Shown piece by piece: positions 4,260-34,259 of a DNA stretch of 37,836 nt (its first letter is position 1; each line of letters begins with the position of its first letter). Source of the DNA: Bacteroidales bacterium (GTDB taxonomy: Bacteria; Bacteroidota; Bacteroidia; Bacteroidales; UBA7960). Below the pieces are notes generated by a model. It searched no databases. It was not told where the DNA came from and saw only the letters and a list, made by a program, of their open reading frames with translations. The stretch is taken from positions 1 to 37,836 of the forward strand of contig SLCY01000050.1 of NCBI GenBank assembly GCA_007125585.1, read 5' to 3'. A program made the position numbers and the translations under genes.

Positions 4260-4328
4260 CGATGTTGATGACAATATTCGGACACATGACCGATGAGAAC
4301 CAAAGAAAACCAAACAAATCATAATACC

Positions 4329-6113
4329 ATGAAATTAAATCAATTTATTCCGCTTCTGCTGATTGCGATTGTTTTTGTGTCCTGCGAAAAGTTTTTGGAC
4401 CCCAAGCCAGACAATCATTATGGAAACGAACATACCTGGAGGTTGCCCGGTAAGGCGGAGGGTGTTCTGATGAACGCATATGACAACATCATGACGCAAT
4501 GGGACCATTGGCCGGGGAACAATTTTCTGGATGTGGCGACCAGCGATGCCGTAACCAATGATTTCAACTCCGGGCTGTATGCTATGGGGTTTGGGGGCAT
4601 GGGCAACGAGGATTTTCCCATCGGAAACTGGAACAATGCATACGACCAATTCCTCAAAATTCACCTCTTTCTCGAAAACGGCCTGAGTGATGATATCCGG
4701 TACAACCTTTCTGACTCACTGCTTAATGAGCGTTACAGGCAACGGCTTAAGGGCGAGGCGTATTTTCTGAGGGCATGGTGGGGGATGGAGCTGCTGAGGA
4801 TTTACGGTGGCATAGCAGAAGATGGCCAGGCCCTCGGTTATGTCATCGTTACAGAAGCCCATCCCGGCAACACGTATGAGAACCTGGAGCTCCTTCCCAG
4901 GAACACTTATGAGGAATGTGTGCAACAGATTACAAGGGACCTGGATTCAGCCATCGTCTATTTGCCGTTCACCTACTCAGGCGGTGACGCTGTGACCGGC
5001 GCTTCCCAGTTTGGTCGTGCCACAAAAAGAGCTGCCTGGGCACTTAAATCAAGGGTGCATACCTATGCCGCCAGTCCTGCCTACCAACCACAGGACGGCT
5101 CCATTTCACCCGATTCCATAACCAGGAAATGGGAACGGGCTGCCATTACTTCCCATCTGGCCATCACCGAAGGAGACCTGGGCGACTATACACCGCTCAC
5201 GGAGGCCAACTTTAACCCTTCAAACACCCCCGGTGAATTTATTTTCAGGAAGCACTTCCAGAACAACCATATGGAAAGCCGGAATTATCCCCCTTATTTC
5301 TTCGGACAGGGCAGGGCGAACCCATCACAAAATCTTGTCGATGCCTTCCCTGACATCAACGGTTATCCAATAGACCATCCACAATCTGTATATGATCCCC
5401 AGGACCCCTATGCCAACCGGGACCCCCGCCTGGACCTGACTGTGTATTACAATGACAGGCATTTTGACACCAGACCCCTGGAGATCTATTATGATAAGGT
5501 GAATGAAAGATATGGACTTGATGCCCCCGGATACGATCACCGCAATACTCGAACAGGATACTATCTCAGGAAGTGGCTTTCTGACGTGCCGGACATGCTG
5601 AATCCCATTCAATCTGCCAATGACCGGCATATGCATGCGCTGCTGCGACGCAGTGAGGTCTACTACAACCTGGCAGAAGCCCTCAATGAGGCGGTTGGCC
5701 CCAGAAACATATTGCCCGGAGCAGGCAGCCGGTCATCATTGGACATCATAAGCAGCATCCGGTTGGCTACCATTGGCATGGACCCGGATATCTTTGCCAG
5801 TCTTGAATCTGCTGATAAAGGCAGGTTCAGAAAACTCATACAGAACGAAAGACGGATCGAGTTTGCCTTTGAGAACATGCGCTATTTTGACATGAGAAGA
5901 TGGCTGCTGCCCCTGGATGAGCCCGTCAGGGGATGCCTGGTGGAAAAGACCTTAGATGGGTTTGTTTACCACGGTACCGATCCCAACGGTGCGCCAATCA
6001 TCGTCGAGGAACGCAAACTCAACGATCCGAAATTCTACTATGCACCGCTCCCTTTAAACGAACTGATAAAAAACCCCAACCTGAGAGACAATAAAGGTTG
6101 GACAGGTCAATAA
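4329..6113 (+). CDS. SusD-like outer-membrane lipoprotein, type B, copy 1
   Basis: A 594-residue RagB/SusD-family surface lipoprotein, partner of the SusC-B encoded 69 bp upstream. The ATG at 4329 gives a short lipoprotein signal with lipobox FVSC (Cys19) followed by EKFLDPK; an acidic residue just after the cysteine fits surface-exposed Bacteroidota lipoproteins. An upstream in-frame start at 4293 would add 12 polar residues and is less likely. Family hallmarks are an N-terminal TPR-like region (AYFLRAWWGMELLRIYGG), NERRIEFAFENMRY-DMRRW, and the typical C-terminal DNKGWTGQ. It is clearly paralogous to the SusD at 24805-26604: both begin after the lipobox with CEK(F/I)LDPKPD and end identically. 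The next gene begins 8 bp after the stop, indicating an operon. Ligand unknown. Confidence 0.95.
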   Translation: MKLNQFIPLLLIAIVFVSCEKFLDPKPDNHYGNEHTWRLPGKAEGVLMNAYDNIMTQWDHWPGNNFLDVATSDAVTNDFNSGLYAMGFGGMGNEDFPIGNWNNAYDQFLKIHLFLENGLSDDIRYNLSDSLLNERYRQRLKGEAYFLRAWWGMELLRIYGGIAEDGQALGYVIVTEAHPGNTYENLELLPRNTYEECVQQITRDLDSAIVYLPFTYSGGDAVTGASQFGRATKRAAWALKSRVHTYAASPAYQPQDGSISPDSITRKWERAAITSHLAITEGDLGDYTPLTEANFNPSNTPGEFIFRKHFQNNHMESRNYPPYFFGQGRANPSQNLVDAFPDINGYPIDHPQSVYDPQDPYANRDPRLDLTVYYNDRHFDTRPLEIYYDKVNERYGLDAPGYDHRNTRTGYYLRKWLSDVPDMLNPIQSANDRHMHALLRRSEVYYNLAEALNEAVGPRNILPGAGSRSSLDIISSIRLATIGMDPDIFASLESADKGRFRKLIQNERRIEFAFENMRYFDMRRWLLPLDEPVRGCLVEKTLDGFVYHGTDPNGAPIIVEERKLNDPKFYYAPLPLNELIKNPNLRDNKGWTGQ

Positions 6114-7057: not shown

Positions 7058-7131
7058 TCCCTGTTGTTTTTGGGGGCAGTTGTGCTTTTTTTGCACCTGC
7101 CCTTTTTTAATCCATGTAATTGATAAGCGAT

Positions 7132-8604
7132 ATGATGATCTGCAATAAAGTTTCAGGCGGGGCGGTGGTATCCTCCCTAATATTCGCCGCAGGGTGCGGA
7201 ACCCCTGACGAACAAGTTATGATACCGGAGAAACCCAACATTATCTATATACTTGCCGATGACCTTGGGTATGGTGACCTGGGATTTACCGGCCAGGAAA
7301 AGTTTGAAACACCCAATATTGACAGGCTTTTTGAAGATGGCATGTTTTTCACCGATCATTATGCCGGAAGCACGGTAAGTGCACCTTCAAGGTCTTCCCT
7401 GATGACGGGTCAACACACAGGCAATACTCCCATCAGGGGAAACATCGAGATTTACCCAGAAGGGCAGCACCCCCTTCCGGACGACCAGCCCGGCCTGGCC
7501 AGGCTGCTCCAGGAGGCAGGTTACGCAACCGGGGCATTCGGGAAATGGGGCCTCGGGTTTATTGGCACCACCGGAGACCCCAACAACCAGGGCTTTGACA
7601 TATTCTATGGCTATAACTGCCAGAGGATTGCCCATAGGTATTACCCCCCCTATATCTGGCATAATGAGGAACAGGTGTTCCTGGAAGGAAACGACTGGAC
7701 CAACAAAGAAGTGTATGCCCAGGATGTAATCCAGGAAAAAACACTAGCGTTTATTGAAGAAAACAAGGATAACCCGTTTTTTCTCTTTGTCCCCAGCCTC
7801 ATCCCACATGCAGAGCTGATCGTACCCGATGATACCATATGGCAACGGTACAGGGATAAGTATCCCGAAACCCCCTGGATCAATCAGCGGGAAGGGGCTG
7901 AATATGGTCCCGACCTGGATCCCATCCTTTACGCATCCGTTGAGAAACCCCGTGCAACGTATGCTGCGATGGTTGCCCGATTGGATATGTATGTCGGACA
8001 GATCATGGATAAAATCGAAGCGCTTGGCCTGGAGGAAAACACCCTGATCATGTTTACCTCCGACAACGGGCCCCACCAGGAAGGGGGGAATGATCCGGAG
8101 TTTTTTAATAGCCGCGGCGATTTCCGGGGTTACAAACGCGACCTCTATGAAGGAGGCATCCGGGTACCCCTGGCAGCCTTCTGGCCCGGCGTGATCGCAG
8201 AAGGGAGCACTTCAAACCACGTTTCTGCCTTTTGGGACATGTTGCCCACCTTTTCTGAACTGGCAGGTGCCGAAATTCCAGGCAAGATTGACGGAATATC
8301 TTTTGTGCCTGCATTGCTGGGAAATAATGAAGCGCAGCAACAGCATGAATACCTATACTGGGAGTTCCATGAAAGGAACGGCCGCCAGGCATTAAGAAAA
8401 GGAGACTGGAAAGCCGTGCGCTACAATGTGTTTCAGGGCGATAACCCAACCGAACTGTACGACCTGCGCACCGACCCCTCCGAAAGCAACGACATAGCAA
8501 AGCAACACCCCGCGATCGTTCAGCGCATGGAAGAACTGATGATAGAAGCACGAACGGACTCGGAAATTTTCGACTTCCAGGCAACTACGGTCAGTGGCCA
8601 GTAA
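7132..8604 (+). CDS. Serine-type sulfatase (S1 family) lipoprotein
   Basis: A 490-residue type I sulfatase that hydrolyses sulfate esters on a glycan. The formylglycine signature is S83-A-P-S-R87 followed by SSLMTGQ, so the catalytic residue would come from serine and needs the radical-SAM maturase anSME, not encoded here. Metal-binding residues are visible as ADD (D43, D44) and TSDNG (D311, N312); K138 in GKWGLG and H226 in IPHAE fit the active-site lysine and histidine. The ATG at 7132 gives a lipoprotein signal with FAAGC (Cys22); the in-frame TTG at 7120 is less likely. The GYNCQR and PHAELIVPDD stretches suggest a GalNAc/Gal-sulfatase-like subfamily, but I cannot fix the subfamily or regiospecificity. 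It sits between the DUF1735 lipoprotein and the GH128-like gene in the same run, 74 and 46 bp away. Confidence 0.95.
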   Translation: MMICNKVSGGAVVSSLIFAAGCGTPDEQVMIPEKPNIIYILADDLGYGDLGFTGQEKFETPNIDRLFEDGMFFTDHYAGSTVSAPSRSSLMTGQHTGNTPIRGNIEIYPEGQHPLPDDQPGLARLLQEAGYATGAFGKWGLGFIGTTGDPNNQGFDIFYGYNCQRIAHRYYPPYIWHNEEQVFLEGNDWTNKEVYAQDVIQEKTLAFIEENKDNPFFLFVPSLIPHAELIVPDDTIWQRYRDKYPETPWINQREGAEYGPDLDPILYASVEKPRATYAAMVARLDMYVGQIMDKIEALGLEENTLIMFTSDNGPHQEGGNDPEFFNSRGDFRGYKRDLYEGGIRVPLAAFWPGVIAEGSTSNHVSAFWDMLPTFSELAGAEIPGKIDGISFVPALLGNNEAQQQHEYLYWEFHERNGRQALRKGDWKAVRYNVFQGDNPTELYDLRTDPSESNDIAKQHPAIVQRMEELMIEARTDSEIFDFQATTVSGQ

Positions 8605-8650
8605 ATGATCAGCCAGCTTTGTTGGCATGATGTTAGAAATAAATTACCCG

Positions 8651-11422
8651 ATGACACGGAAAACACTTTTTGTTATCCTTTCTTTTATAACGGGAGGAAC
8701 CCTGCTGGGCCAAAACGTACTGCACCTTGTGGATGAAACCGCAAGCTTCGACGAACTGATGGATTATGAAGTCACCATGGAAGGAAACTCCGAACTTCAT
8801 TTAACCGGTGAAATTGCTTCCGTGAGTGGCTCTACTTTCAATATTTTGTCGGACGATAGCTGGATCTTCTTTCACGAGATCTGGCCTTCGTATGTTAACA
8901 ATGATCTTGCAGACCAAATTTTTGTGAATGGTGAGCCTGCCATCCCGGAACAGAATGTCCGTTTTGAGCAGTATCGGCATGGGACAGCGGTTATTCCGCA
9001 TTCGCCAGATTTCCTGCCACTGATGGTGTATGGTGAGGCTGATTACGGGGGAGCATCAATCCAGATGGGACAGTATGTTTATTACAGAGAATCTGAACTA
9101 GGCGACATGAACAACCAGATCAGCTCCTTTACACTGAAAAGGGGCTATATGGCCACTTTTGCACAAGGTGCGATGGGTGATGGATATAGCAGGGTGTTTA
9201 TCGCGGAGGATGAGGACATCCATGTTCCTGAGATGCCGGAAGGGCTGGATAACAGTGTTTCTTTCGTCCGCGTTTTTCCCTGGAAATATGTAAGTAAAAA
9301 AGGCTGGGGCGGGGGCGAGACCTCGCAAAGTTGGAACCTGATGCAGTATACCTGGCAATATAACTGGAATGCCAATGGCAGCTCTGGTCTGAACTTTGAG
9401 TACGTGCCCATCCGCCACAATTACTATTGGCCAAACTTTGACCTCATCAACAACATTGAAAACTCCACCCATCTGCTTGGGTACAATGAACCGGAAAGGC
9501 CTGATCAGGCTGACATGACAGTAGAGCAGGCGCTGGAGCAATGGCCGCGGCTTATGGAGTCAGGGTTGAGACTCGGCTCCCCGGCTCCCTCGGATGCAGC
9601 CGTTGGGCGAAACTGGTTGTATGAGTTTTTAGATCGGGCCGATGAGCTGAACTACAGGGTCGACTATGTGGCAATGCATTGGTACCAGGGGGGACAAACA
9701 CCTACCCAGTTCTATAACAGGCTGAGACAGGTGCACGAACGCACCGGCCGTGCCATATGGGTCAAAGAGTTTAACAATGGGGCCAACTGGACAACTCATC
9801 CCGATCCAGAGGAAAGCGCCGATTGGTTTGCAGAGGCCTTGCACATGCTTGATACCGCCAGCTTTGTGGAACGCTATGCCGTGTTTCACTGGATGGCCGA
9901 TCCCTTTAAAATGTACATTAACAACGAGTTGACCCCCGCAGGCCAGGTATATAGTGATTTCAAGGCCGGCTTTGCATACAATCCCGGTAAGGAATATATC
10001 ATGGAGTATATTCCGGTACCCCGTCCGGGCCTGGTGCAGGCAGAAATCGTGTCTGCAGGCACGAAGATTACATGGATTGACAATGTCGCAGGCAGCATGG
10101 GGTTACAGGTTGAACGCTCTTTCGAAGGGGATGATTTTGTACAGATTGCCGACATCGAAGATGTTGAACAGAATATATTTATAGACACTGAGACACTTGT
10201 CGGGGAAACGATGTACCGGTTGAGGCTGTACACCGGTGGGGAATATTCAGAATGGTCGGATACGGTGAGTGTGTTTAAGGCAAACCAGGATGTGCCTTAC
10301 GCCATAGATCACCGTTCCTCAGGCAACCGGCTCACCTATTCGGAGCCTGCCGGCACGGCGGTGCTTGAGAACGCCGACGGGGAAACGTATACACAAAAAT
10401 GGCGACTGGCACATGCCACAGAAGGGCAACACTATATTGAAAATGTTGCTGGCAACGTCCGTCTGATGCACCATCCGGATGAGGGCATCAAGATGGTGCC
10501 ACGGTCCAACACCACGCTGAATGCACGATGGGAGGTTGAAAGCCTGGAAGCCGGATCAGGGTGGCGGTTCCTTGTGAACAGTGGAACCGGAAGAAAATTG
10601 CATGCACGGCATCAGGACAATTATCATGTGGGGACTACTGACCCGCAGTGGACAGGACCAAACGTGCAGTGGAAACTGACCCCCCTCGACCCGTTGCCCC
10701 CGGGCATCATCGTGGATGCACGGCCAAACAACCCCGATCATGGCAGCGTCACAGGCGGAGGCTACTTTGAACATGACACCGAAGTGAGCCTGACAGCGAC
10801 CCCGAATCATGGCTATCGCTTCCTCTATTGGAAAGAAGGACAGGACACCATTTCCACAGATGCGACATTGGAATTCATTGCTGGAGAAGAAGACCGCACC
10901 ATCATTGCCCACTTTGAGCGCAACCTGTTTACGGTTACTTTCCTGGTCCAGGATGAAAACGAAGAACCGATACCGGATGCCATAGCTGTTCTTGGTTCAA
11001 CGCAAAATGACACCGGCGATTATGTCTTTGAAAATATCGAGCCCGGTGAATACAGTTATACCATTGTCCATACAGACTATCCCCTTGCCGGAGGCGATAT
11101 CGAACTGGTGGATGAGGATATTTCGGTGACCGTGATCATGAAAGAGGATGACACCAGCCTGAAAGATATAACACTGCCCGCAATACAAGCCCATCCCAAC
11201 CCTGTCCGCGATGTGCTCTTTGTAACATTTGAAAACCACAGCGAACGGCCGGTAAACGTTCTACTGTTAAACATGCATGGACAATCTATTGCATCAAAGA
11301 CAATTACAGAAAAAGGGCCTCAGGAATTGCAGTTTTCCATTGAGGGACTGGCACGGGGACTGTATTTGCTGCGCATTGATTACGAAGGGATCCCGCTCCC
11401 GAAGAAGATCATGGTGCACTAG
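8651..11422 (+). CDS. T9SS-exported GH128-like glycoside hydrolase with betagamma-crystallin-like, trefoil-like and InlB-repeat modules
   Basis: A 923-residue secreted multidomain enzyme. Numbering uses the ATG at 8651, which gives a compact signal peptide; ATGs at 8627/8630 are alternatives. In order: an N-terminal beta-rich region (to about 120); a betagamma-crystallin-like module (about 122-209) with NNQISS (154-159) and a weaker DNSVSF (200-205) matching the family's N/D-N/D-x-x-S/T-S calcium motif; a GH128-like catalytic core (about 227-447) with probable acid/base E280 in GYNEPE, AMHWY, and probable nucleophile E373 in WVKEF; an FN3-like segment; a ricin-trefoil-like segment (about 548-680); an InlB-type repeat (HGSVTGGG...AHFE); a small carboxypeptidase-regulatory-like domain; and a T9SS sorting domain (from HPNPVRD to the C-terminal KKIMVH). 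GH128 enzymes act on beta-1,3-glucans; the substrate here is unproven. Last intact gene of the left operon. Confidence 0.85.
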   Translation: MTRKTLFVILSFITGGTLLGQNVLHLVDETASFDELMDYEVTMEGNSELHLTGEIASVSGSTFNILSDDSWIFFHEIWPSYVNNDLADQIFVNGEPAIPEQNVRFEQYRHGTAVIPHSPDFLPLMVYGEADYGGASIQMGQYVYYRESELGDMNNQISSFTLKRGYMATFAQGAMGDGYSRVFIAEDEDIHVPEMPEGLDNSVSFVRVFPWKYVSKKGWGGGETSQSWNLMQYTWQYNWNANGSSGLNFEYVPIRHNYYWPNFDLINNIENSTHLLGYNEPERPDQADMTVEQALEQWPRLMESGLRLGSPAPSDAAVGRNWLYEFLDRADELNYRVDYVAMHWYQGGQTPTQFYNRLRQVHERTGRAIWVKEFNNGANWTTHPDPEESADWFAEALHMLDTASFVERYAVFHWMADPFKMYINNELTPAGQVYSDFKAGFAYNPGKEYIMEYIPVPRPGLVQAEIVSAGTKITWIDNVAGSMGLQVERSFEGDDFVQIADIEDVEQNIFIDTETLVGETMYRLRLYTGGEYSEWSDTVSVFKANQDVPYAIDHRSSGNRLTYSEPAGTAVLENADGETYTQKWRLAHATEGQHYIENVAGNVRLMHHPDEGIKMVPRSNTTLNARWEVESLEAGSGWRFLVNSGTGRKLHARHQDNYHVGTTDPQWTGPNVQWKLTPLDPLPPGIIVDARPNNPDHGSVTGGGYFEHDTEVSLTATPNHGYRFLYWKEGQDTISTDATLEFIAGEEDRTIIAHFERNLFTVTFLVQDENEEPIPDAIAVLGSTQNDTGDYVFENIEPGEYSYTIVHTDYPLAGGDIELVDEDISVTVIMKEDDTSLKDITLPAIQAHPNPVRDVLFVTFENHSERPVNVLLLNMHGQSIASKTITEKGPQELQFSIEGLARGLYLLRIDYEGIPLPKKIMVH

Positions 11423-13753: not shown

Positions 13754-16372
13754 ATGTCTCACCTAAGGGTTGTTTTTTCTTTCTTACTGTTGTCTGTACT
13801 CATATCTCCATCACTGACTGCCCAACAGCAGACAGGCAGACAGCCGGGTGTAATACATATCAATACTGATAAAGGGAATCCGCTGAAAGAGGGTGTCAGT
13901 GGATTTAACGTTCGTATTGCAGATAAGGTTTGGAATTATACCCACCCCGATTTCAGGGATGCCGTTCATCGTCTGCATCCGGGATGGTTGCGTTTTTTTT
14001 CCGGGACCATGGGCAGTGCATTCAATGCAGCCACCGGTCTGTATGACAAAGACTATGCATGGATGCACGACCACCAGCAACAATATTTCAGGGGCTATGT
14101 TTTTACTGATGTGAAAGGGCCTCACAGGATATCGGATTTGTATGCATTACTGGGAGAAATTGGCGGGAAACTGGTTGTTACCATCAATGGCTTTACTGAA
14201 ACACCGGAAATAACGCGTGAGCTGGCCCGTTTTTGCAAGAATAACAATATAGAAGTAGAGGTATGGCAGTTCTGCAATGAACCCTATTTCTATGTGCCCC
14301 ATCGCGACAGGTATTGGTTCAATGACGGATACGATTATGCAGTGAAGATGAAACCTCATGCTGAAGCCATTTTGGATATTTTTCCTGATGCTCGGCTGGC
14401 TGTAAATGCTTCGTGGGATGGCGTATGGGCTTTTTTTGCATCTCTGTACAATTACCAACAGAAACACGGCGCCTATTGGGATGTGTTTTCCAAGCATTCT
14501 TATGCGCCCCATTTTGGGGGTGATGAGCCTTTCGATAATGCCATGCGAAGGGCAAATTCTGCTTTGATCGATGTAACCGGACCTGAAGCCATGCAGGAAA
14601 TAGAAAATTATTCATGGGAGGGTGTACCATTGTTAATTACCGAATTTGGTGTGTGGAACAGGCCGTTGATTGGCTTGTTCTCTGCCATCTATGTAGCAGA
14701 ATATACCCTTCGGCAGCTTCAGCATCCTAACGCATTTCTGATTGGCTCACATGAAGTCAGCAACAAAGGGATTCCTGCCATTGATCTCAACGATGTAATA
14801 TGGGATGCCTATGAACAGAAGCAACCCATTGACACAGATTCTCTTCGAACCGGAGTGTATATTAGAGCCGAAGGCAGAGCCTTGAAGATTGTTCACAAGG
14901 CAACCAGTTATGCTGATTTCAGCTGGCATACCACAATAGAAGGAGGTAAAATGGTTGACGGGTTGCATGGGGAGGACCTGGATGGCTTATATGCCATGGC
15001 TTTCAAGGGTACAAACAGCCATGATCACCTGTTGATCACCAACCGGTCGGGATATTATCACGATTTTGACATATGGCTGGATGATAAATTGCTGGATGAG
15101 AAGGTAAAACGGACCTTTATGTATTCAGAAAACCCCAAGGAGGATAATGCAGACATTTTAGAAGACACGGTAAGCACCAGTCCGCTTAACATCCCTCCTT
15201 ACAGTGTTGTGCTCATACAGTGGGAGAAGGATGTGAAGCGTCCCCCAACAAGATCAAGGATTTACCGGGCGGAAGTGATTAACGAAGGGGTAAAGCTTGA
15301 CTGGTGGGAAAGAGAGACAGCTGATCATTACACAATTGTCTATGGAGAAGATCCCGACCATATGAATGACTCCATTATTATTAACGGCGGCGATCAGACC
15401 AGTTACATTGTTTCAAATCTTGCTGCTGAAAAAACATATTGGTTTGCTGTAAAAGCAACAAACAGTGCCGGCAGCAGTCCCTTGTCTGCAGCTGTAAAAT
15501 TAAGCACACAGGCACCACCGGCACCTGAGATTTTCAATACCACCCGGCGAGATACCACCATTACCGTTTTCTGGCGCAGTGTGCCTGGTGCCAAAGGTTA
15601 TAAAGTCAGTATAAAAAGCAAATCGGGAAAGTATACAAACAGCTTTGATGCCCAAAATGTGTTTGGGTATCGTATCGACGGACTTGACTATGATGTTCCG
15701 TATCTGATTACCGTCGCTGCTTACAATGGTCTGGGAGAAAGCAACCATTCCAGTCCGGTGGAGGTGACGTGCAAAAAAGGTATACCAGTGCCTCCAAGAA
15801 ATATTTCGGCAAGAATGACAAACGAGGGAAGCGTTTTTCTTAACTGGATAAACCAGGACACCATCAACAGCGACATACGGTTCAAGGTGTTGCGCGGCAA
15901 AGAATTATACCAGTTTCAGGAGCTTGCCAGCGACATCGCAGATGATCATTTCATTGACACAACCAATGATGGTCAATCTGACTATTACTATACGGTTATG
16001 GCTTATACGGCAGACGGTGAATCCAACTTTCATCCGAATATCGCCACCGTACTTTCCATCGATGAGGGGATCGACATCGACATTGTTGAGGTGAATAAAA
16101 CAGATGATGCACTGCTTGTCAGGGTCTCATTCGACAACATCCCAGATGTTGCTGATTTGCGCTTTGGGGTGTCGTTAAGCGATATCTCCTATCTGACGGT
16201 AGAAGAGACATTGTTTGATGCAAAAGAAGTTGGTGCGCAAGATTATATGGTCGAAATACCTTTCGATGAACTCACAGAAGGACGCACCTATTCGGTAAAA
16301 GCTTTTATCAGGCTCGACTTTAGCTTTATCTATAGTCTGCCTCCCCATCATAATGTTACCATTAATCCATAA
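13754..16372 (+). CDS. Clan GH-A-like glycoside hydrolase with FN3 repeats
   Basis: An 872-residue enzyme secreted by a type I signal peptide (hydrophobic core LLLSVLISPSL, cleavage near TAQQQ). The N-terminal half has the layout of a (beta/alpha)8 clan GH-A hydrolase: LRFFSGTMGSAF near residue 79, then QFCNEPYFY with probable acid/base E176, KHSYAPHF near 247, and LLITEFGVW with probable nucleophile E297. This recalls GH39/GH51/GH79-type enzymes, but I cannot assign a CAZy family. A beta-sandwich segment follows, then about three fibronectin III repeats (about 505-775) and a C-terminal beta-rich domain. There is no T9SS sorting domain, so a periplasmic location is likely. The SusC gene begins 80 bp downstream, so this gene probably leads the second transporter operon. 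The sequence looks more A/T-rich than the left block by eye. Confidence 0.75.
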   Translation: MSHLRVVFSFLLLSVLISPSLTAQQQTGRQPGVIHINTDKGNPLKEGVSGFNVRIADKVWNYTHPDFRDAVHRLHPGWLRFFSGTMGSAFNAATGLYDKDYAWMHDHQQQYFRGYVFTDVKGPHRISDLYALLGEIGGKLVVTINGFTETPEITRELARFCKNNNIEVEVWQFCNEPYFYVPHRDRYWFNDGYDYAVKMKPHAEAILDIFPDARLAVNASWDGVWAFFASLYNYQQKHGAYWDVFSKHSYAPHFGGDEPFDNAMRRANSALIDVTGPEAMQEIENYSWEGVPLLITEFGVWNRPLIGLFSAIYVAEYTLRQLQHPNAFLIGSHEVSNKGIPAIDLNDVIWDAYEQKQPIDTDSLRTGVYIRAEGRALKIVHKATSYADFSWHTTIEGGKMVDGLHGEDLDGLYAMAFKGTNSHDHLLITNRSGYYHDFDIWLDDKLLDEKVKRTFMYSENPKEDNADILEDTVSTSPLNIPPYSVVLIQWEKDVKRPPTRSRIYRAEVINEGVKLDWWERETADHYTIVYGEDPDHMNDSIIINGGDQTSYIVSNLAAEKTYWFAVKATNSAGSSPLSAAVKLSTQAPPAPEIFNTTRRDTTITVFWRSVPGAKGYKVSIKSKSGKYTNSFDAQNVFGYRIDGLDYDVPYLITVAAYNGLGESNHSSPVEVTCKKGIPVPPRNISARMTNEGSVFLNWINQDTINSDIRFKVLRGKELYQFQELASDIADDHFIDTTNDGQSDYYYTVMAYTADGESNFHPNIATVLSIDEGIDIDIVEVNKTDDALLVRVSFDNIPDVADLRFGVSLSDISYLTVEETLFDAKEVGAQDYMVEIPFDELTEGRTYSVKAFIRLDFSFIYSLPPHHNVTINP

Positions 16373-21488: not shown

Positions 21489-21540
21489 ACCATGTATTTC
21501 GAGTCAGCTAGCGCATTTGTCAGTTTATTCCGGAAAGCTG

Positions 21541-21556
21541 TCAGCCGGCTGGCTGA
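21541..21556 (+). other. Small hairpin between SusD-A2 and SusC-B2
   Basis: TCAGCC (21541-21546), loop GGCT, GGCTGA (21551-21556): a perfect 6-bp stem in the 102-bp spacer, 34 bp before the ATG at 21591. There is no T-run. It could be an mRNA-processing or stability element that sets the ratio of the two transporter pairs; the left block lacks it. Confidence 0.35.
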
Positions 21557-21590
21557 TGATTGCATAACAGGTAATAAAAATGATAAACAC

Positions 21591-24500
21591 ATGAAAAAAA
21601 ATGTTATACACTTTGGCTATCCAAGGTGGATCATGTTATTGGTTGCGCTGATGGCATTCTGTCCTGCACTGGCAAATGTTGATTCGCCTTCGCAGACAGC
21701 AGAACTGGAAGTGAAGATCCGCTTGGTCGACCCGCTGGGAAATCCTGTTCACCATGCGGTAGCTGTGGCACCCAACGGCAGGTTTTCCCCTTCAAAGGAG
21801 GGAGAACTGGTTGCCATGGTAGCCCGGGATGCCCTTCTGATTATCGAAGCCGTTGGTTACCGTGATTTGTATATCGATCTTGCCGGCACTGAACCGCCGG
21901 AACAGGTCATACTTTATCCCATCCCACTGCAGACCGGAACGCGCGATATGGTTCCCCTGCCTCTGCAGATCCAAGAAAAGAGTCGTTACCTCACGGCTGC
22001 TGACGGCATGTTTGAAGGGAGTAATCTGGAGACCTCCCCGGAACCTATGCTGTCAAATGCTTTACAGGGCCATGGACTTGGTCTGGTGGTGAGAATGACC
22101 CCCGGAGGCATGGCCAACAATCCGGCAGACCTGTATGTCAGGGGACTGAGCAGGATCGACAATAATCAGGTTATCACTGTGGTAGACGGAATAGAACGAC
22201 CCATAGAGCATATACTGCCCAACGAAATAGCTTCTGTCAGCCTTTTGAAAGACCCCACCATGAAAATACTTTATGGTGCCCGGGCTGCCAATGGCGTGCT
22301 GATGATCACCACCAAACGGGGCGACCGGAACCAGCGTCACATAAATGTAAGCGGCGGCTATGGAGTGGGTATGCCTTTGAGATATCCTGACTTCCTGGAT
22401 GCATCACAGTATGCTAGCCTTTACAATGAAGCCCGGATCAATGATGGCTTAACACCAATATACTCAGAAAAGGATATCCTTGGATATATGGGTAGCAATG
22501 GCGTCAATGATGTGACATACCCAAACGTCGACTACTATGATTACTTTCTCAGGCCATACAATAACTACTCCAGGGTTACTGCTGATTTTTCGGGTGGAAG
22601 CGACAACGCCGCCTATTTTCTAATGTATGGATATACCGGGGCAACCGGACTGGAAGATATCGGAAGGTCGCCGCGGAATGACCGCTTTAACCTGAGAGGA
22701 AACCTCGATATCGATATCAGCGATATGGTGTCAGCACACCTGGATGTGGCCGTCCGTCATGAAAAAATGGAGAGAAGTGCGCTCAACCACGCAGAGGTGT
22801 TCGAAGCGCTGAGCAGACACCGGCCCAATGAATATCCACTGACCATCGAAGAACTGCCCCTCGATAGCGTAGGAAATCCCGCCCTGGGCGGTAGTTGGGA
22901 CCATTATAATAATTTGTACGGCGGACTGAAATACAGTGGGTATTTTACAGAACAATATTTTAGCGGACAGTCAAATATGGGACTCGATTTTGATTTCAGT
23001 GATTATGTCGAAGGGCTTTCGGCAAAAGCTTATATGACTTTTGATAATTACTTTTTTGGAATCGAATCATTGAACAACCAACCTTCGGTTTTTGTCCGGC
23101 AATGGGTTACGGCGGCAAATGGAAATGATTCGCTAGTTTTCCGTAACGTGCAACGTACCAGCTATGATCCCCAATTGCGACTGTCGGATAGTGAAAACCT
23201 TCGTAATACAGGTTTTTCCGGCTCGGCAAATTACCTGAATACCTTAGGTGACCACAGGGTAAGCGCAGCATTGTCACACTTGTACCATATTAATGAGCAG
23301 GCCGGGTATGCCCAGGATATCGAAAACATGAATACCATTCTCCGAACATCCTATGTTTACAAACAACGATATATTGCCGAGTTTGTCATGGCATACATGG
23401 GGAGCAACAGGTTTACAGGCGATAAACGTCACCAATTGTTCCCTGCCGGAGGACTTGCATGGATTCTTAGCGATGAACAATTCCTCAACCGGCATTCTGC
23501 AGTCAATTATCTGAAGCTTCGGGTCAATGCAGGGATTATAGGTTATGATGCGTTTACCCCGCAGTTCCTGTATCAAAACCGCTGGCAGGACTTCGGTAAT
23601 GTAAGCTTTGGAGATCCGTCCGGCACCAATCAGCCCAGAGTAATCTCCTCCATCATGGCAAACCCTAACCTTGGATGGGAAAAATCACGTGAATTCAGCG
23701 GTGGTATGGAAGGCATCGCTTTTGACCACCGTCTGTTTTTTGAGTTGAACTATTTCAATGAATATCGTTACGATATCATTCAGTTTGTACATGCCGCATT
23801 TCCTGCACTGCTTGGAGGGATCTTCCCCTGGCTTAACTGGGGTGAAGTGAAAAACCAGGGCTTTGAAGTCTCGCTGAACTGGAACGACAAGTTGGGGGAT
23901 GTGTTGGTCGGTGTCGGTTCAAACTATATATATTCACAAAATAAAGTGCTTCGGCATGATGAGGTTCCCTATGCCGAGTTGTACCGTATGATAACCGGAC
24001 AACCTTCCGATGCCATGATGGGCTATTCATCACTTGGACTTTTTGGCAGGGATGTGGCACTAGACGGACATCCTCACCAAACATTCGGCCCTTATGGTGA
24101 AGGAGATATCGCCTACAGCGACTTAAACGGTGACGGGGTGATCGACGACAGGGACCAAAAAATGCTGGGAAACAGTTTTCCAAGACATTCACTGGGTATC
24201 GATATCAGGTTGAATTACAAAAACTGGGAATTGTTTGCACTTGGCGTTGCTCAACTTGGCTTTGATGCGTGGCTGAGTAATGCATACTACTGGAACAGGG
24301 GGGAAGACAAATACTCGGTAATGAGCGCTGACAGGTATCATCATGAAAATAACCCCACAGGGAGCTATCCGCGACTGACCACCACGGAAGGAACCAACAA
24401 TTTTATATACAGTAACTTTTGGATGGAAAATGCCGGGTTTTTCCGTTTAAAAAACATGGAACTGAGCTATACGATAAGCAACAAGGAGGTTGTCGCCATA

Positions 24501-24647
24501 CCCAGGACAATGAGGTTTTACCTGAGAGGAAGCAACCTGTTTGTGTTATCGGCCATCAAAGACCTTGACCCTGAAGTGCCTGATGGTGGATTGACAAATT
24601 ATCCCGTGCTCAGGTCTGTTTCGCTGGGTGTGTTGGTGTCTTTTTGA
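21591..24647 (+). CDS. SusC/RagA-like TonB-dependent receptor, type B, copy 2
   Basis: A 1018-residue receptor, clearly paralogous to the one at 1191-4259. The ATG at 21591 gives a signal peptide (MKKNVIHFGYPRWIMLLVAL, then ALANV); the open frame extends to 21492, but that would put 33 mostly polar residues in front. A degenerate regulatory-like domain (about 35-115) precedes DMVPLPLQI, which occupies the place of the TonB box, and the plug carries GHGLGLV, LYVRGLS, VVDGIERP and RAANGVLMITTKRG. DLNGDGVIDDRD matches the Ca-type loop of copy 1, and the GHPHQTFGPYG and GNSFPRH stretches are identical in both. The protein ends in LVSF. It is separated from its SusD by 157 bp. Confidence 0.95.
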   Translation: MKKNVIHFGYPRWIMLLVALMAFCPALANVDSPSQTAELEVKIRLVDPLGNPVHHAVAVAPNGRFSPSKEGELVAMVARDALLIIEAVGYRDLYIDLAGTEPPEQVILYPIPLQTGTRDMVPLPLQIQEKSRYLTAADGMFEGSNLETSPEPMLSNALQGHGLGLVVRMTPGGMANNPADLYVRGLSRIDNNQVITVVDGIERPIEHILPNEIASVSLLKDPTMKILYGARAANGVLMITTKRGDRNQRHINVSGGYGVGMPLRYPDFLDASQYASLYNEARINDGLTPIYSEKDILGYMGSNGVNDVTYPNVDYYDYFLRPYNNYSRVTADFSGGSDNAAYFLMYGYTGATGLEDIGRSPRNDRFNLRGNLDIDISDMVSAHLDVAVRHEKMERSALNHAEVFEALSRHRPNEYPLTIEELPLDSVGNPALGGSWDHYNNLYGGLKYSGYFTEQYFSGQSNMGLDFDFSDYVEGLSAKAYMTFDNYFFGIESLNNQPSVFVRQWVTAANGNDSLVFRNVQRTSYDPQLRLSDSENLRNTGFSGSANYLNTLGDHRVSAALSHLYHINEQAGYAQDIENMNTILRTSYVYKQRYIAEFVMAYMGSNRFTGDKRHQLFPAGGLAWILSDEQFLNRHSAVNYLKLRVNAGIIGYDAFTPQFLYQNRWQDFGNVSFGDPSGTNQPRVISSIMANPNLGWEKSREFSGGMEGIAFDHRLFFELNYFNEYRYDIIQFVHAAFPALLGGIFPWLNWGEVKNQGFEVSLNWNDKLGDVLVGVGSNYIYSQNKVLRHDEVPYAELYRMITGQPSDAMMGYSSLGLFGRDVALDGHPHQTFGPYGEGDIAYSDLNGDGVIDDRDQKMLGNSFPRHSLGIDIRLNYKNWELFALGVAQLGFDAWLSNAYYWNRGEDKYSVMSADRYHHENNPTGSYPRLTTTEGTNNFIYSNFWMENAGFFRLKNMELSYTISNKEVVAIPRTMRFYLRGSNLFVLSAIKDLDPEVPDGGLTNYPVLRSVSLGVLVSF

Positions 24648-29519: not shown

Positions 29520-32500
29520 ATGGTTGTAAAGAGAAAACATAAGTCATTTTGCTGCTTCTTTTTTTCCCTATTGCTGCTCTCTACTGCTGGTTTTTCCCAG
29601 CAGGTTGCCATCAATGAGATCATGTCGTCCAATGCGGAAACCATTTCAGACATATATGGCGATTATGAAGATTGGATTGAGCTTTATAATTATGGGAATG
29701 TCCCTGTTGACCTTAAGGGCTATGGGCTTTCTGATGATTATGATAACCCTTTCCGGTGGGTTTTTCCATCGGTGGTGATAGCACCGGGCGAATATCTCCT
29801 GGTGTGGGCGTCGGGCAAGGGAGTCATGGCTGACGACGGATGGGTCAACGGTGTGATGCGGGAAGTGTATACAGGGATCCCCGGCCACAACATAAGCCAT
29901 CTTGTCAACCATCCCGACTATCCCGGTAATCCCTCAAAAAGACATCTCGTGACCAGCGGTTTTGATGCACCGGTAAATGTGGATGATCATTACGGGCAGC
30001 GCATGCATGCCTACCTGGAGGCTCCCGAAACAGGGGCCTATGTTTTCTGGATAGCCAGCGACGATAACGGCCTCCTGTACCTGAGCACGGACGATGATCC
30101 TGCAAACATTTCAGCCATAGCCAGTGTCCCGGGATGGACCCATCACATGGAATGGGACAAATACCCTGAGCAACAGTCCGATCCGGTCTGGCTTGAACAA
30201 GGCAACCGCTATTACATCAAAGCACTTATGAAGGAGCATGAAGGGGGCGACAACCTCAGCGTGCGGTGGCAACTCCCGTCCGGTAACATCCAGGAACCCA
30301 TACCCAATGACCGTTTGTTCTGGGATGAGCCGGAGCTGCATACCAACTTCAGCATTGCCAGTGATGGCGAAGAAGTGTTATTAAGCCGTCCCGATGGCAG
30401 CCTGGTAGACGTGCATCCGCCCACCTTTATTCCCACCGACATTTCCTATGGCAGGCAACCCGATGGTACGGGCGACTGGTATTTTTTCATGGAGCCAACC
30501 CCTGGTAAAAGCAATGAATCAGAAACATTTTCAGGGGTTTTGACCCCCCCCTTTTTTTCATCCCCCGGGGGGGTCTACCGGGAGGCCTTTGGCCTTTCGA
30601 TCCATCACCGGGAAGAAGACGTTGCATTAGTTTATACACTCGACGGGTCAGAACCCTCAGACACTAACCTGGATGGAAGCACATACCATTATAAGAAGCA
30701 TTACCGTAAATACCAGGCACAACAAGATGGCGGACTGGAAGAGCGCGAATATATAAGCCAGGTTTATTCGGGGACAATACCTGTTGAAGACAAAACCGGT
30801 CGGGAAGAAACCCAGACAGTGGTCAACACGGTGTGGGAACAACATCCCGTTTCCCCCTATGAAGATCCGCTGACGGGAACAGTGGTCAGGGCAAGGGCTT
30901 ATAAAGACGGTTATATACCAAGTGAAGTGGTTTCCAGCACATATATCATCCGCCACGACCCCTATCCTTTGCCAGTGGTATCACTGGCGTTACCTGAAAA
31001 ATCGGTTTTTTGCTATTATGAGGGGATCTATGTCCCGGGTTTACGCTTTGATGAGTGGCGATCGGCAAACTGGCATGCATATGTGAGTGGCGGTTCCCCG
31101 GCCAATTTCCATAACAGGGGCATAGACTGGGAAAGGGAAACCAGCTTTGAGTTTTTTGATGCCTCCGGGGTAAATGCCCTTAACCACAGGGCCGGAGTAA
31201 GAATTCACGGGGGATATAGCCGTAGCTTTCCGCAAAAATCGTTGAGATTATATGCCCGGGGCAGGTACGGGACCACCGAATTTATGCACCAGCTGTTTCC
31301 TTCCAAAGACACGGAAAGATTCAAAAGGTTTATCATGAGGGCTTCGGGTAACGACCATAATCTAACCTTTTTTCGTGATGCACTGATACAGCAGATGGTC
31401 CTTGACAGGCCGGTTGATGTGCAACACTGGCAACCAGTAATGACCTTTATCAACGGTGAATTCTGGGGAATCCTGAATGTGCGGGACAGGTACGACAAAT
31501 ATTATTTGTACTATAAGTATGGCATTGACCCTGACAATGTGGACATCCTTGAAGGAGATGCCAGGGTGAAAGAGGGAAGCAGCCAACATTACAACAATAT
31601 GATGGATTATGTTGTGGGGAACGACATGGGCGATCCTTACCATTATGATCATGTGAACACCATGATGGATATTGACAATTTTGCAGAGTATTATGCCATC
31701 CAGATTTATGTAAACAACAAGGACTGGCCCGGGAACAACATTGATTTCTGGCGGCTTAGAACAGATGCCTATGAACCTGATGCACCCAATGGCCATGATG
31801 GCAGATGGCGGTGGATGCTGTATGATACAGATTTTGGATTTGGCATTTGGGGGTCCGGTCCGTGGGAAAACATGCTCGAGTTTGCAGCCGAAGAACATGG
31901 GCCCGGCTGGCCCAATCCTCCCTGGTCGACCCGGCTTTACAGGAACTTGCTTGACAACCAGGGCTTCAGGGATAAAATGGTCAACCGCCTGGCAGACCTC
32001 ATGAACTGCTCTTTTCATCCGGATTCAGTATTGATGAAAATAGACGAAATGAAGGAAAAGTATGAACCCGTGATGGCCGGGCATATTGACAGGTGGACAG
32101 TGATCGGTTCGATGAATAACTGGAATAACCAGATCAATGTGATGCGGAGTTTTGCCGAACAAAGGCCGGGGTATATGAAACAACATATAGAGGATTTTTT
32201 TGATCTGAGCGGTCATTATGATTTAACCGTCCATGTGGGGTCAGGAAGGGGAAGCATCAGGATCAACACGGTCGAAATCAAAGATCCCGACAACTGGAAG
32301 GGGACCTATTTTAACGGTGTCCCCATTGAGGTTGAAGCCATCCCCGAAGCCGGTTATAGCTTCAGCCACTGGGAAGGTGCATCAGACGCCGGGTGCAGCA
32401 GCATTGGCCTGACGGGCCATGAAGACATGTTCCTGGAAGCGCATTTTGAACCCTCGGGAGACCCCCGCCTGATCACTTTTTGGGTCTTTGATGGATCAAT

Positions 32501-34259
32501 GCCCAATGATACACCCCTTGAAACCATTGAAGACTCTTTCCATGCCATTCGTCCGGCAAAAATTTCTTTTCATTCCGCTTTGGACGGTTACCCATTCTAT
32601 CCCGGGCACGCAAACTGGAGAAAGGCCTCCATGGAAAGACGCAACCGGCCTACAGACATCAATTACCGCCCGGAGGGAAACAATGGGGTTGAGTACGGGG
32701 CTTCCGATATGCGGGGATTGCAGGTGAGGCAGCCTTTCACAGGCAACAATGGCGAAAACACGCTGGTCTTCCATCTGCCTACCTGTGGTTTTAAGGATAT
32801 TGTTTTCCGTTTTGCAGCCAAAGATGAAGGTGCTGCTGACTTCCTGCTTGTTGACTACTCTCTGGAAAACAATGACGCCCAATGGCTTACAGCGGGACTG
32901 GAGACCGACACCCTGGAACTTTCGACAAACTATAAGCTCTTCGAGATCGATTTTTCAGAAATAGATGGGGTTGAAAACAATCCTGATTTTAAAATACGTA
33001 TTAGATTTGGCGGGGATGATATGGCGGCAGACGATGGCGACAGGTCCACCTTCAACAATATCAGCCTTGACGGGGTGTCGCTTGATGAGATAGGCCAGCC
33101 CCCGGAGATTGCATCCCCACTGTCATTGAAAAAGGGCATCGAGGAAGGGGAGGTCATAACCATTGATCTGAACAAAGTTTTCAAAGCCCCTGGGGAGGGT
33201 TCACTTGATTTTTCTGTAAGCAGCTCGCAGCCGGAACTTGTCAGTGCACAGGTTTACGGAGATATGCTTGAGCTGACCCCCCTAAAAAGGGGAGGCGCCC
33301 ATATTGCCATCTCAGCGGGTTATAACGACAATCCGGCTGCAGAGCACAGCTTCCGGGTCCTGGTCTATCCCAAGGCCCACCCGATGACCCAAGGCGAGTT
33401 TGGATTCTCCGAGTGGTACGCAAACCACCCGGAATTCACCTATCCTGAAAACATGTTGTTCCTTCAGTCCGATATTGATGATCCGGGACTGGCATATCCG
33501 TTATTAGCCCCTTACCACATTGAACACGACGATTACCATCAGAATGATCAGGGAAGCATCGGTTTTCCATACAACAACACGGGTCGTTCACGTATCAACG
33601 GACTGGGGGGCGATGGGATCTCTTTTATCAATACCGGCAGGCGGAGGGATCTGGGTGGCGCATTGGTTACGATCAATACAACAGGTGTGGAAAATGTCGG
33701 GATTCAATGGACCGGGGGCACACTCATCCAAAACGACAGGATTTATGCCATCCGTTTACAATACAGGGTCGGTACAGAAGGAAGGTTTCATGATGTTGTG
33801 CATAATGGGCGGATATCGCAGTACATAGTGGGCAATGCGGGCCACACGGAAACATTGCCGGCGATAAAACTTCCTGAAGCGGCCATGGGTGAGGAATATG
33901 TGCAATTGCTATGGCAGTATTACCATATTGCCGGTGATAGCGGGCCCCGACCGCAGCTCCGCCTGGATGATATCGTGGTGGGCGACCTGGAATACGACGA
34001 CCTGGGGGCCGATGAGAGACAAAACCTGCAAAATACCAGGGTGTTCCCAAATCCGGCGGTCAACATTGTGAACATTGCCTCCAGCAGCCGTATAAAAAGT
34101 GTGAATGTATACAATATATCAGGTGACCTGGTTTATACACACATCCAGGAAGGATATGAGAACAGCCTCCCTGTGGGGCATTTGAACACCGGGATCTATT
34201 TCTTCCGCATCGTCACCGCCAAAGGGGTGGAGGTGCACAAAGTCATGGTACAACATTGA
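29520..34259 (+). CDS. Giant T9SS-exported CotH-kinase-like protein with lamin-tail and PA14 modules
   Basis: A 1579-residue extracellular protein. After a signal peptide (to about residue 27), a lamin-tail domain begins (29-102: INEIMSSN, DWIELYNYG, FPSVVIAPGEYLLVWASGKG). It is interrupted by a PA14-like module (about 108-262: YVFWIASDDNG, GNRYYIKALMKEHEGGDNLSV) and completed at 272-333 (HTNFSIASDGEEVLLSRPDG...PTPGKSN). Next come a chitobiase-C-like domain (about 342-478, YTLDGSEPSD) and a CotH-like kinase domain (about 484-885) with GGYSRSFPQKSLRLYAR, MRASGNDHN, FRDALIQQ, NNKDWPGNN and MLYDTDFGFG (D769/D771). An InlB-type repeat, two jelly-roll-like modules around an Ig/cadherin-like segment, and a T9SS sorting domain (from VFPNPAVN to the C-terminus) follow. 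Known CotH proteins phosphorylate protein in spore coats; a role here is not known. Confidence 0.85.
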   Translation: MVVKRKHKSFCCFFFSLLLLSTAGFSQQVAINEIMSSNAETISDIYGDYEDWIELYNYGNVPVDLKGYGLSDDYDNPFRWVFPSVVIAPGEYLLVWASGKGVMADDGWVNGVMREVYTGIPGHNISHLVNHPDYPGNPSKRHLVTSGFDAPVNVDDHYGQRMHAYLEAPETGAYVFWIASDDNGLLYLSTDDDPANISAIASVPGWTHHMEWDKYPEQQSDPVWLEQGNRYYIKALMKEHEGGDNLSVRWQLPSGNIQEPIPNDRLFWDEPELHTNFSIASDGEEVLLSRPDGSLVDVHPPTFIPTDISYGRQPDGTGDWYFFMEPTPGKSNESETFSGVLTPPFFSSPGGVYREAFGLSIHHREEDVALVYTLDGSEPSDTNLDGSTYHYKKHYRKYQAQQDGGLEEREYISQVYSGTIPVEDKTGREETQTVVNTVWEQHPVSPYEDPLTGTVVRARAYKDGYIPSEVVSSTYIIRHDPYPLPVVSLALPEKSVFCYYEGIYVPGLRFDEWRSANWHAYVSGGSPANFHNRGIDWERETSFEFFDASGVNALNHRAGVRIHGGYSRSFPQKSLRLYARGRYGTTEFMHQLFPSKDTERFKRFIMRASGNDHNLTFFRDALIQQMVLDRPVDVQHWQPVMTFINGEFWGILNVRDRYDKYYLYYKYGIDPDNVDILEGDARVKEGSSQHYNNMMDYVVGNDMGDPYHYDHVNTMMDIDNFAEYYAIQIYVNNKDWPGNNIDFWRLRTDAYEPDAPNGHDGRWRWMLYDTDFGFGIWGSGPWENMLEFAAEEHGPGWPNPPWSTRLYRNLLDNQGFRDKMVNRLADLMNCSFHPDSVLMKIDEMKEKYEPVMAGHIDRWTVIGSMNNWNNQINVMRSFAEQRPGYMKQHIEDFFDLSGHYDLTVHVGSGRGSIRINTVEIKDPDNWKGTYFNGVPIEVEAIPEAGYSFSHWEGASDAGCSSIGLTGHEDMFLEAHFEPSGDPRLITFWVFDGSMPNDTPLETIEDSFHAIRPAKISFHSALDGYPFYPGHANWRKASMERRNRPTDINYRPEGNNGVEYGASDMRGLQVRQPFTGNNGENTLVFHLPTCGFKDIVFRFAAKDEGAADFLLVDYSLENNDAQWLTAGLETDTLELSTNYKLFEIDFSEIDGVENNPDFKIRIRFGGDDMAADDGDRSTFNNISLDGVSLDEIGQPPEIASPLSLKKGIEEGEVITIDLNKVFKAPGEGSLDFSVSSSQPELVSAQVYGDMLELTPLKRGGAHIAISAGYNDNPAAEHSFRVLVYPKAHPMTQGEFGFSEWYANHPEFTYPENMLFLQSDIDDPGLAYPLLAPYHIEHDDYHQNDQGSIGFPYNNTGRSRINGLGGDGISFINTGRRRDLGGALVTINTTGVENVGIQWTGGTLIQNDRIYAIRLQYRVGTEGRFHDVVHNGRISQYIVGNAGHTETLPAIKLPEAAMGEEYVQLLWQYYHIAGDSGPRPQLRLDDIVVGDLEYDDLGADERQNLQNTRVFPNPAVNIVNIASSSRIKSVNVYNISGDLVYTHIQEGYENSLPVGHLNTGIYFFRIVTAKGVEVHKVMVQH

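Follow-up and report, generated by a model that had tools for sequence, protein, structure and literature searches.

The closest described relatives of the protein reported here are of two kinds. Flavollin (3HZB), the betagamma-crystallin domain of a "carbohydrate binding protein" from Flavobacterium johnsoniae, has two Greek keys, and both of its calcium motifs are canonical (NDDISS and NDKVSS). Clostrillin (3I9H) and its mutants, Protein S (1NPS), and spherulin 3a (1HDF) have the same fold; they are canonical calcium binders and are not fused to GH128 enzymes. Microbial members of this superfamily that carry such motifs bind calcium and gain stability from it (PMC3551895, PMC8639718), and the main chain at position X1 of the motif coordinates the calcium (PMC8639718). 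On the enzyme side, AmGH128_I (6UAQ series) is an endo-beta-1,3-glucanase of subgroup I, and the construct that was solved comprises only the barrel and carries no crystallin module. In CBM6E from Saccharophagus degradans (8J3X), a GH128 barrel that is nearer to subgroup II is packed as one block with a beta-sandwich module, but this module is a CBM6 and is C-terminal.

The protein that we describe joins a crystallin module to a GH128 barrel. It is encoded in a contig from a Bacteroidales genome (SLCY01000050.1), and we refer to the whole stretch that was analysed (37,836 nucleotides) as the window. The gene and the parts of its protein are:

8627..11422, + strand: whole gene (931 codons), encoding a secreted multidomain protein of 931 amino acids
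8714..9007, + strand: unnamed N-terminal all-beta domain (residues 30-127), mainly short strands in the model
9008..9292, + strand: betagamma-crystallin module of two Greek keys (residues 128-222), from profile, PDB search, AlphaFold2, and Foldseek
9029..9052, + strand: signature of Greek key 1, Y135-x4-Y140-x-G142 (YGEADYGGASIQMG)
9110..9127, + strand: motif 1, NNQISS (residues 162-167), canonical N/D-N/D-x-x-S/T-S
9248..9265, + strand: motif 2, DNSVSF (residues 208-213), without the final Ser
9293..9964, + strand: GH128 catalytic (alpha/beta) barrel (residues 223-446), from PF11790 and Foldseek
9488..9490, + strand: E288, predicted catalytic acid/base in the NEP motif, invariant
9767..9769, + strand: E381, predicted nucleophile, invariant, aligned with E199 of AmGH128_I
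10295..10696, + strand: probable ricin-type beta-trefoil region (residues 557-690), PF14200 with E = 0.01, below the Pfam cut-off
10733..10924, + strand: InlB B-repeat-like domain (residues 703-766), PF18998 with E = 1.4e-14
11195..11416, + strand: T9SS type A sorting domain (residues 857-930), PF18962 with E = 6.2e-9

A preliminary description of this DNA had the feature start at 8999, which is not the start of the gene (8627) but corresponds to residue 125, close to where the module begins. It placed the module at residues 122-209; the limits 128-222 describe it better. The three motifs that it quoted are all present: YGEADYGGASIQMG at residue 135 (position 9029), NNQISS at residue 162 (9110), and DNSVSF at residue 208 (9248). 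Its main observation, a betagamma-crystallin module on a GH128-like enzyme with a T9SS tail, is confirmed. Its interpretation fared less evenly: the fold, the enzyme, and the tail are supported, a paired calcium-binding function has weak support, and the rarity of the pairing and the marine setting are not supported, as described below.

If translation starts at Met9, then the signal peptide spans about residues 9-29. At the other end, the T9SS sorting domain is also matched by TIGR04183 (27 bits, compared to a cut-off of 23). The N-terminal domain (residues 30-127) had zero matches in Pfam, NCBIfam, PHROGs, or the PDB sequence search. It is common to most but not all of the proteins that combine the module with GH128, with 16-57% identity outside the genus; L019_823 and L026 keep the module and have no N-terminal domain. 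Some GH64 proteins seemed to resemble its C-terminal part, which we rejected as alignment spill-over from the crystallin module. The ricin-type region, where the PF14200 match consists of two weak stretches, is probably an unannotated carbohydrate-binding module.

Residues 128-222 form a betagamma-crystallin domain of two Greek keys: the sequence profile, the fold prediction, and the conservation agree. Neither Pfam nor NCBIfam has anything over this region in the window protein, with zero matches to PF00030 (Crystall) even at E ≤ 10. The present assignment corrects the domain annotation of these glucanases. Just one of 16 homologous modules matches PF00030 (E = 0.0016). The PF00030 threshold is a library cut-off and not a defining trait, and divergent members escape it. 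In a single-sequence search of the PDB, the module's best match was flavollin (E = 0.0033). We then took homologues from genomes of the same order, aligned them, and built a profile from 16 homologous modules. This profile matched flavollin across both Greek keys (E = 1.8e-7) and Protein S (E = 2.3e-5), as well as hahellin, clostrillin, and spherulin 3a at weaker E-values. An AlphaFold2 model of the module from the 16-homologue alignment has a pLDDT of 93.2 and a pTM of 0.84. When this model was compared to the PDB with Foldseek, betagamma-crystallins took the top 23 places (TM by query of about 0.68-0.80, and about 0.75-0.80 for clostrillin and its mutants, Protein S, and spherulin 3a). Next in rank were fungal GH29 fucosidases with a domain that matches the module, such as the alpha-L-fucosidase of Fusarium graminearum (4NI3, E = 1e-4), a glycoside hydrolase of another family and another kingdom. 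These searches pointed to neither another fold nor another family.

The module is 24-29% identical to flavollin, and both show GY following motif 1 and RV in the final strand. (The close flavollin-like sequences L037 and L052 sit after a GH64 domain, according to Pfam, and not before GH128.) Greek key 1 has the signature (Y/F/W)xxxx(Y/F)xG, from Y135 to G142; in Greek key 2, the corresponding stretch (F178 to G186) deviates from it by a one-residue insertion. A chance match to the motifs is rejected by the profile, by the fold search, and by shuffling: among 10,000 shuffles of the protein, 0.13% had (Y/F/W)x4(Y/F)xG and, 15-40 residues further on, (N/D)(N/D)xx(S/T)S. Across 35 distinct modules, G142, S167, G173, and S188 never vary and F168 and L207 hardly do, although constancy of fold residues is expected whatever the domain's function.

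The assignment to GH128 is also confirmed. PF11790 matches residues 234-442 with E = 9.9e-34 (117 bits, compared to a cut-off of 21), and the closest solved GH128 by sequence is AmGH128_I, so the protein is nearest to subgroup I. Foldseek with a 426-residue model gave the same enzyme as the best match (6uas, E = 9.4e-16, 30% identity), with both catalytic glutamates aligned. N287, E288, H351, Y353, and E381 are invariant in an alignment of 18 homologues. Judged by motif order and not by superposition, they are equivalent to N167, E168, H245, Y247, and E272 of CBM6E, which line its catalytic site (PMC10956234); E288 also corresponds to E102 of AmGH128_I. With these residues conserved, the protein is likely to be an active retaining beta-1,3-glucanase.

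The preliminary description knew of no common pairing of such a module with GH128, but the pairing recurs systematically in the sampled order. We scanned 344 genomes from the order and found 55 matches to PF11790 and 29 to the module. Every one of the 28 strong module matches sits immediately N-terminal of a GH128 core, on the same strand and in the same frame, with a gap of 0-23 residues (60 in one case), and 28 of the 55 GH128 genes carry a module. Thus, a domain that is best known from eye lenses and from calcium-binding stress proteins is a constant component of roughly half of the GH128 genes found in the sampled order. A scan of 395 genomes from the phylum gave strong matches, beyond the window, to five GH128 proteins, which come from three further families of the class; two of the five were domain-scanned. 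A rare or accidental fusion is therefore rejected. The weaker matches in the phylum are flavollin-like modules, and the eight such proteins that were domain-scanned have GH64, GH18, GH76, polysaccharide-lyase-like, or M12-like metalloprotease domains or consist of crystallin repeats only.

When 48 GH128 cores were placed in a tree, one branch parted those with the module from those without it (88/79 support; present in 90% of bootstrap trees), a pattern consistent with a single gain or a single loss of the module. We found no description of the pairing of crystallin and GH128 in the searched literature, which misses most subscription papers. As far as that literature shows, a dedicated and mostly calcium-degenerate crystallin-GH128 clade is new, while the fold and the enzyme are of known kinds. 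We also note that one genome has four tandem GH128 genes (G141:C105 109899-117432; L006, L019, L024, and L026), all with the crystallin module; one of these genes is cut by the end of the contig. The 29th module match in the order (L074, G607:C10:525471-525677) is weak (E = 7e-5), contains an in-frame TGA, and has no adjoining GH128.

We propose that the module is a rigid structural part of a secreted GH128 beta-1,3-glucanase and that its calcium binding is optional, and we consider this proposal, taken as a whole, reasonably probable. The fold, the pairing, and the residue losses behind it are shown by the analysis; the rigid packing, the stabilising role, and the substrate are deduced from them and from the models. 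The protein would be secreted by the T9SS, probably to the cell surface, and would act within a SusCD polysaccharide-utilisation locus. Its divergent betagamma-crystallin domain, from a GH128-dedicated clade, would sit directly N-terminal of the barrel, with the module's last strand continuing without a break into the first segment of the barrel (VRVFPWKYVSKKGW). Almost no linker separates the two: the second Greek key finishes its last strand near residue 217, and the first segment of the barrel (KKGW) starts at residue 224. A model of the three domains (426 residues) has a pLDDT of 91.6 and a pTM of 0.91, and such values are high for a flexible string of domains. From the pTM and the short linker, we infer that the N-terminal beta domain, the module, and the barrel form one block in which the module braces and stabilises the barrel; it may also shape one side of the substrate groove. 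Candidate interface residues are F168, A179, A193, F213, and W219, which are fully or almost fully conserved across the GH128 clade and are not shared by flavollin. Some observations count against the proposal. The window's branch retains a canonical motif 1, so a role for calcium in this genus is possible, and a neighbouring sulfatase would be unexpected if the substrate were a plain beta-1,3-glucan.

On the reading of the preliminary description, calcium at one or both of the Greek-key sites would rigidify the module and the enzyme with it. The window module does not have two canonical N/D-N/D-X-X-S/T-S motifs: motif 1 (NNQISS) is canonical and motif 2 (DNSVSF) is not, as it ends in F, although it retains the N/D-N/D pair and the Ser at position 5. 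The missing final Ser had been correctly reported and had been taken as the sign of a possibly weak site. In lens crystallins, however, that Ser is structural and is not known to be a calcium ligand, so its loss alone would not weaken a site. Motif 1 is canonical in the window protein, yet in only 9 of 35 homologues, and motif 2 is canonical in none of the 35, with Phe at its position 6 in 30 of them. Position 5 of motif 1, which we take to be a calcium-ligand position, is Ser in 9 of the 35 distinct modules, Arg in 15, and Lys in 4 (Arg or Lys in 19). Arg at this position would abolish calcium binding. The calcium-rich marine setting that had been suggested is also not supported: the nearest named relative (MAG CSSed10_193) belongs to the same genus, its protein is 95% identical over the query, and it is from the sediment series CSSed10. 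PMC6146748 counts this series among its soda-lake sediments of moderate salinity and describes soda lakes as poor in calcium. The motifs as they stand in the window protein, and the stabilisation of microbial betagamma-crystallins with such motifs by calcium, are in favour of a calcium-dependent stabiliser, but given the losses across the homologues and the soda-lake relative, we consider it unlikely. The best reading of the aligned motifs is that calcium binding is optional in the module family and mostly lost in the relatives. In the window's genus, one calcium site is plausible, since motif 1 of the window protein is canonical and its motif 2 is close to canonical.

Another explanation is that the module binds carbohydrate and would grip the glucan or loosen it beside the active site, as the CBM6 of CBM6E does. 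GH128 and CBM6 fold as one block in that enzyme (PMC10956234), and related crystallin modules occur on GH64 beta-1,3-glucanases, on GH18 and GH76 proteins, and on a lyase. But the GH64, GH18, and GH76 proteins have separate CBM6 or ricin-type modules, the window protein has its own ricin-like region, and similar modules are also found on M12-like metalloproteases. Sugar binding by a betagamma-crystallin domain was not found in the searched literature, and we think that this explanation is quite unlikely. It is very improbable that the module is instead a protease-inhibitor-like domain (I36/SMPI type) that protects the secreted enzyme: PF03995 (Inhibitor_I36) matches 3 of the 16 modules (best E = 0.0038), but the known crystallin modules of flavollin type match it just as weakly, I36 inhibitors and betagamma-crystallins have a common fold, and both the profile and the fold searches rank crystallins first.

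Returning to the module as a structural part of the enzyme, we suggest more tentatively how it may have arisen. A previously undescribed, GH128-dedicated clade of crystallins may have given up calcium binding, via Arg or Lys at the ligand position, independently of the vertebrate lens crystallins, and become a lasting structural component of a beta-1,3-glucanase and possibly of its substrate groove. The natural series from canonical motifs to Arg or Lys within one enzyme family could be used to test whether calcium binding is traded for intrinsic stability. This question has been raised for lens crystallins, and PMC8639718 cites work on their loss of calcium binding.

Upstream of the GH128 gene are genes for SusC, SusD (4293-6113, assigned by sequence and position), a BT_3987-like surface lipoprotein, and a sulfatase. 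The soda-lake relative keeps these genes in the same order (73-93% identity). The sulfatase (7120-8604) lies directly before the GH128 gene, and it has the same place in the relative. The presence of a sulfatase hints that the substrate is a sulfated polysaccharide or is mixed. In other genomes, the genes around the homologues did not indicate any single substrate. Downstream are a protein with Big_2 and T9SS domains and a weak polysaccharide-lyase-like match, and then a protein with three fn3 domains (according to Pfam). The latter (13754-16372, 872 amino acids) has an N-terminal half with no Pfam match that looks by eye like a glycosidase barrel (CNEPYF, TEFG). Farther along the window, an open reading frame of 1051 amino acids (21492-24647) lies between two SusD genes; it has no Pfam match at E ≤ 0.001 and, from its position, is probably a divergent SusC. 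Finally, 29520-34259 encodes a CotH kinase protein of 1579 amino acids with lamin-tail, PA14, and T9SS domains.
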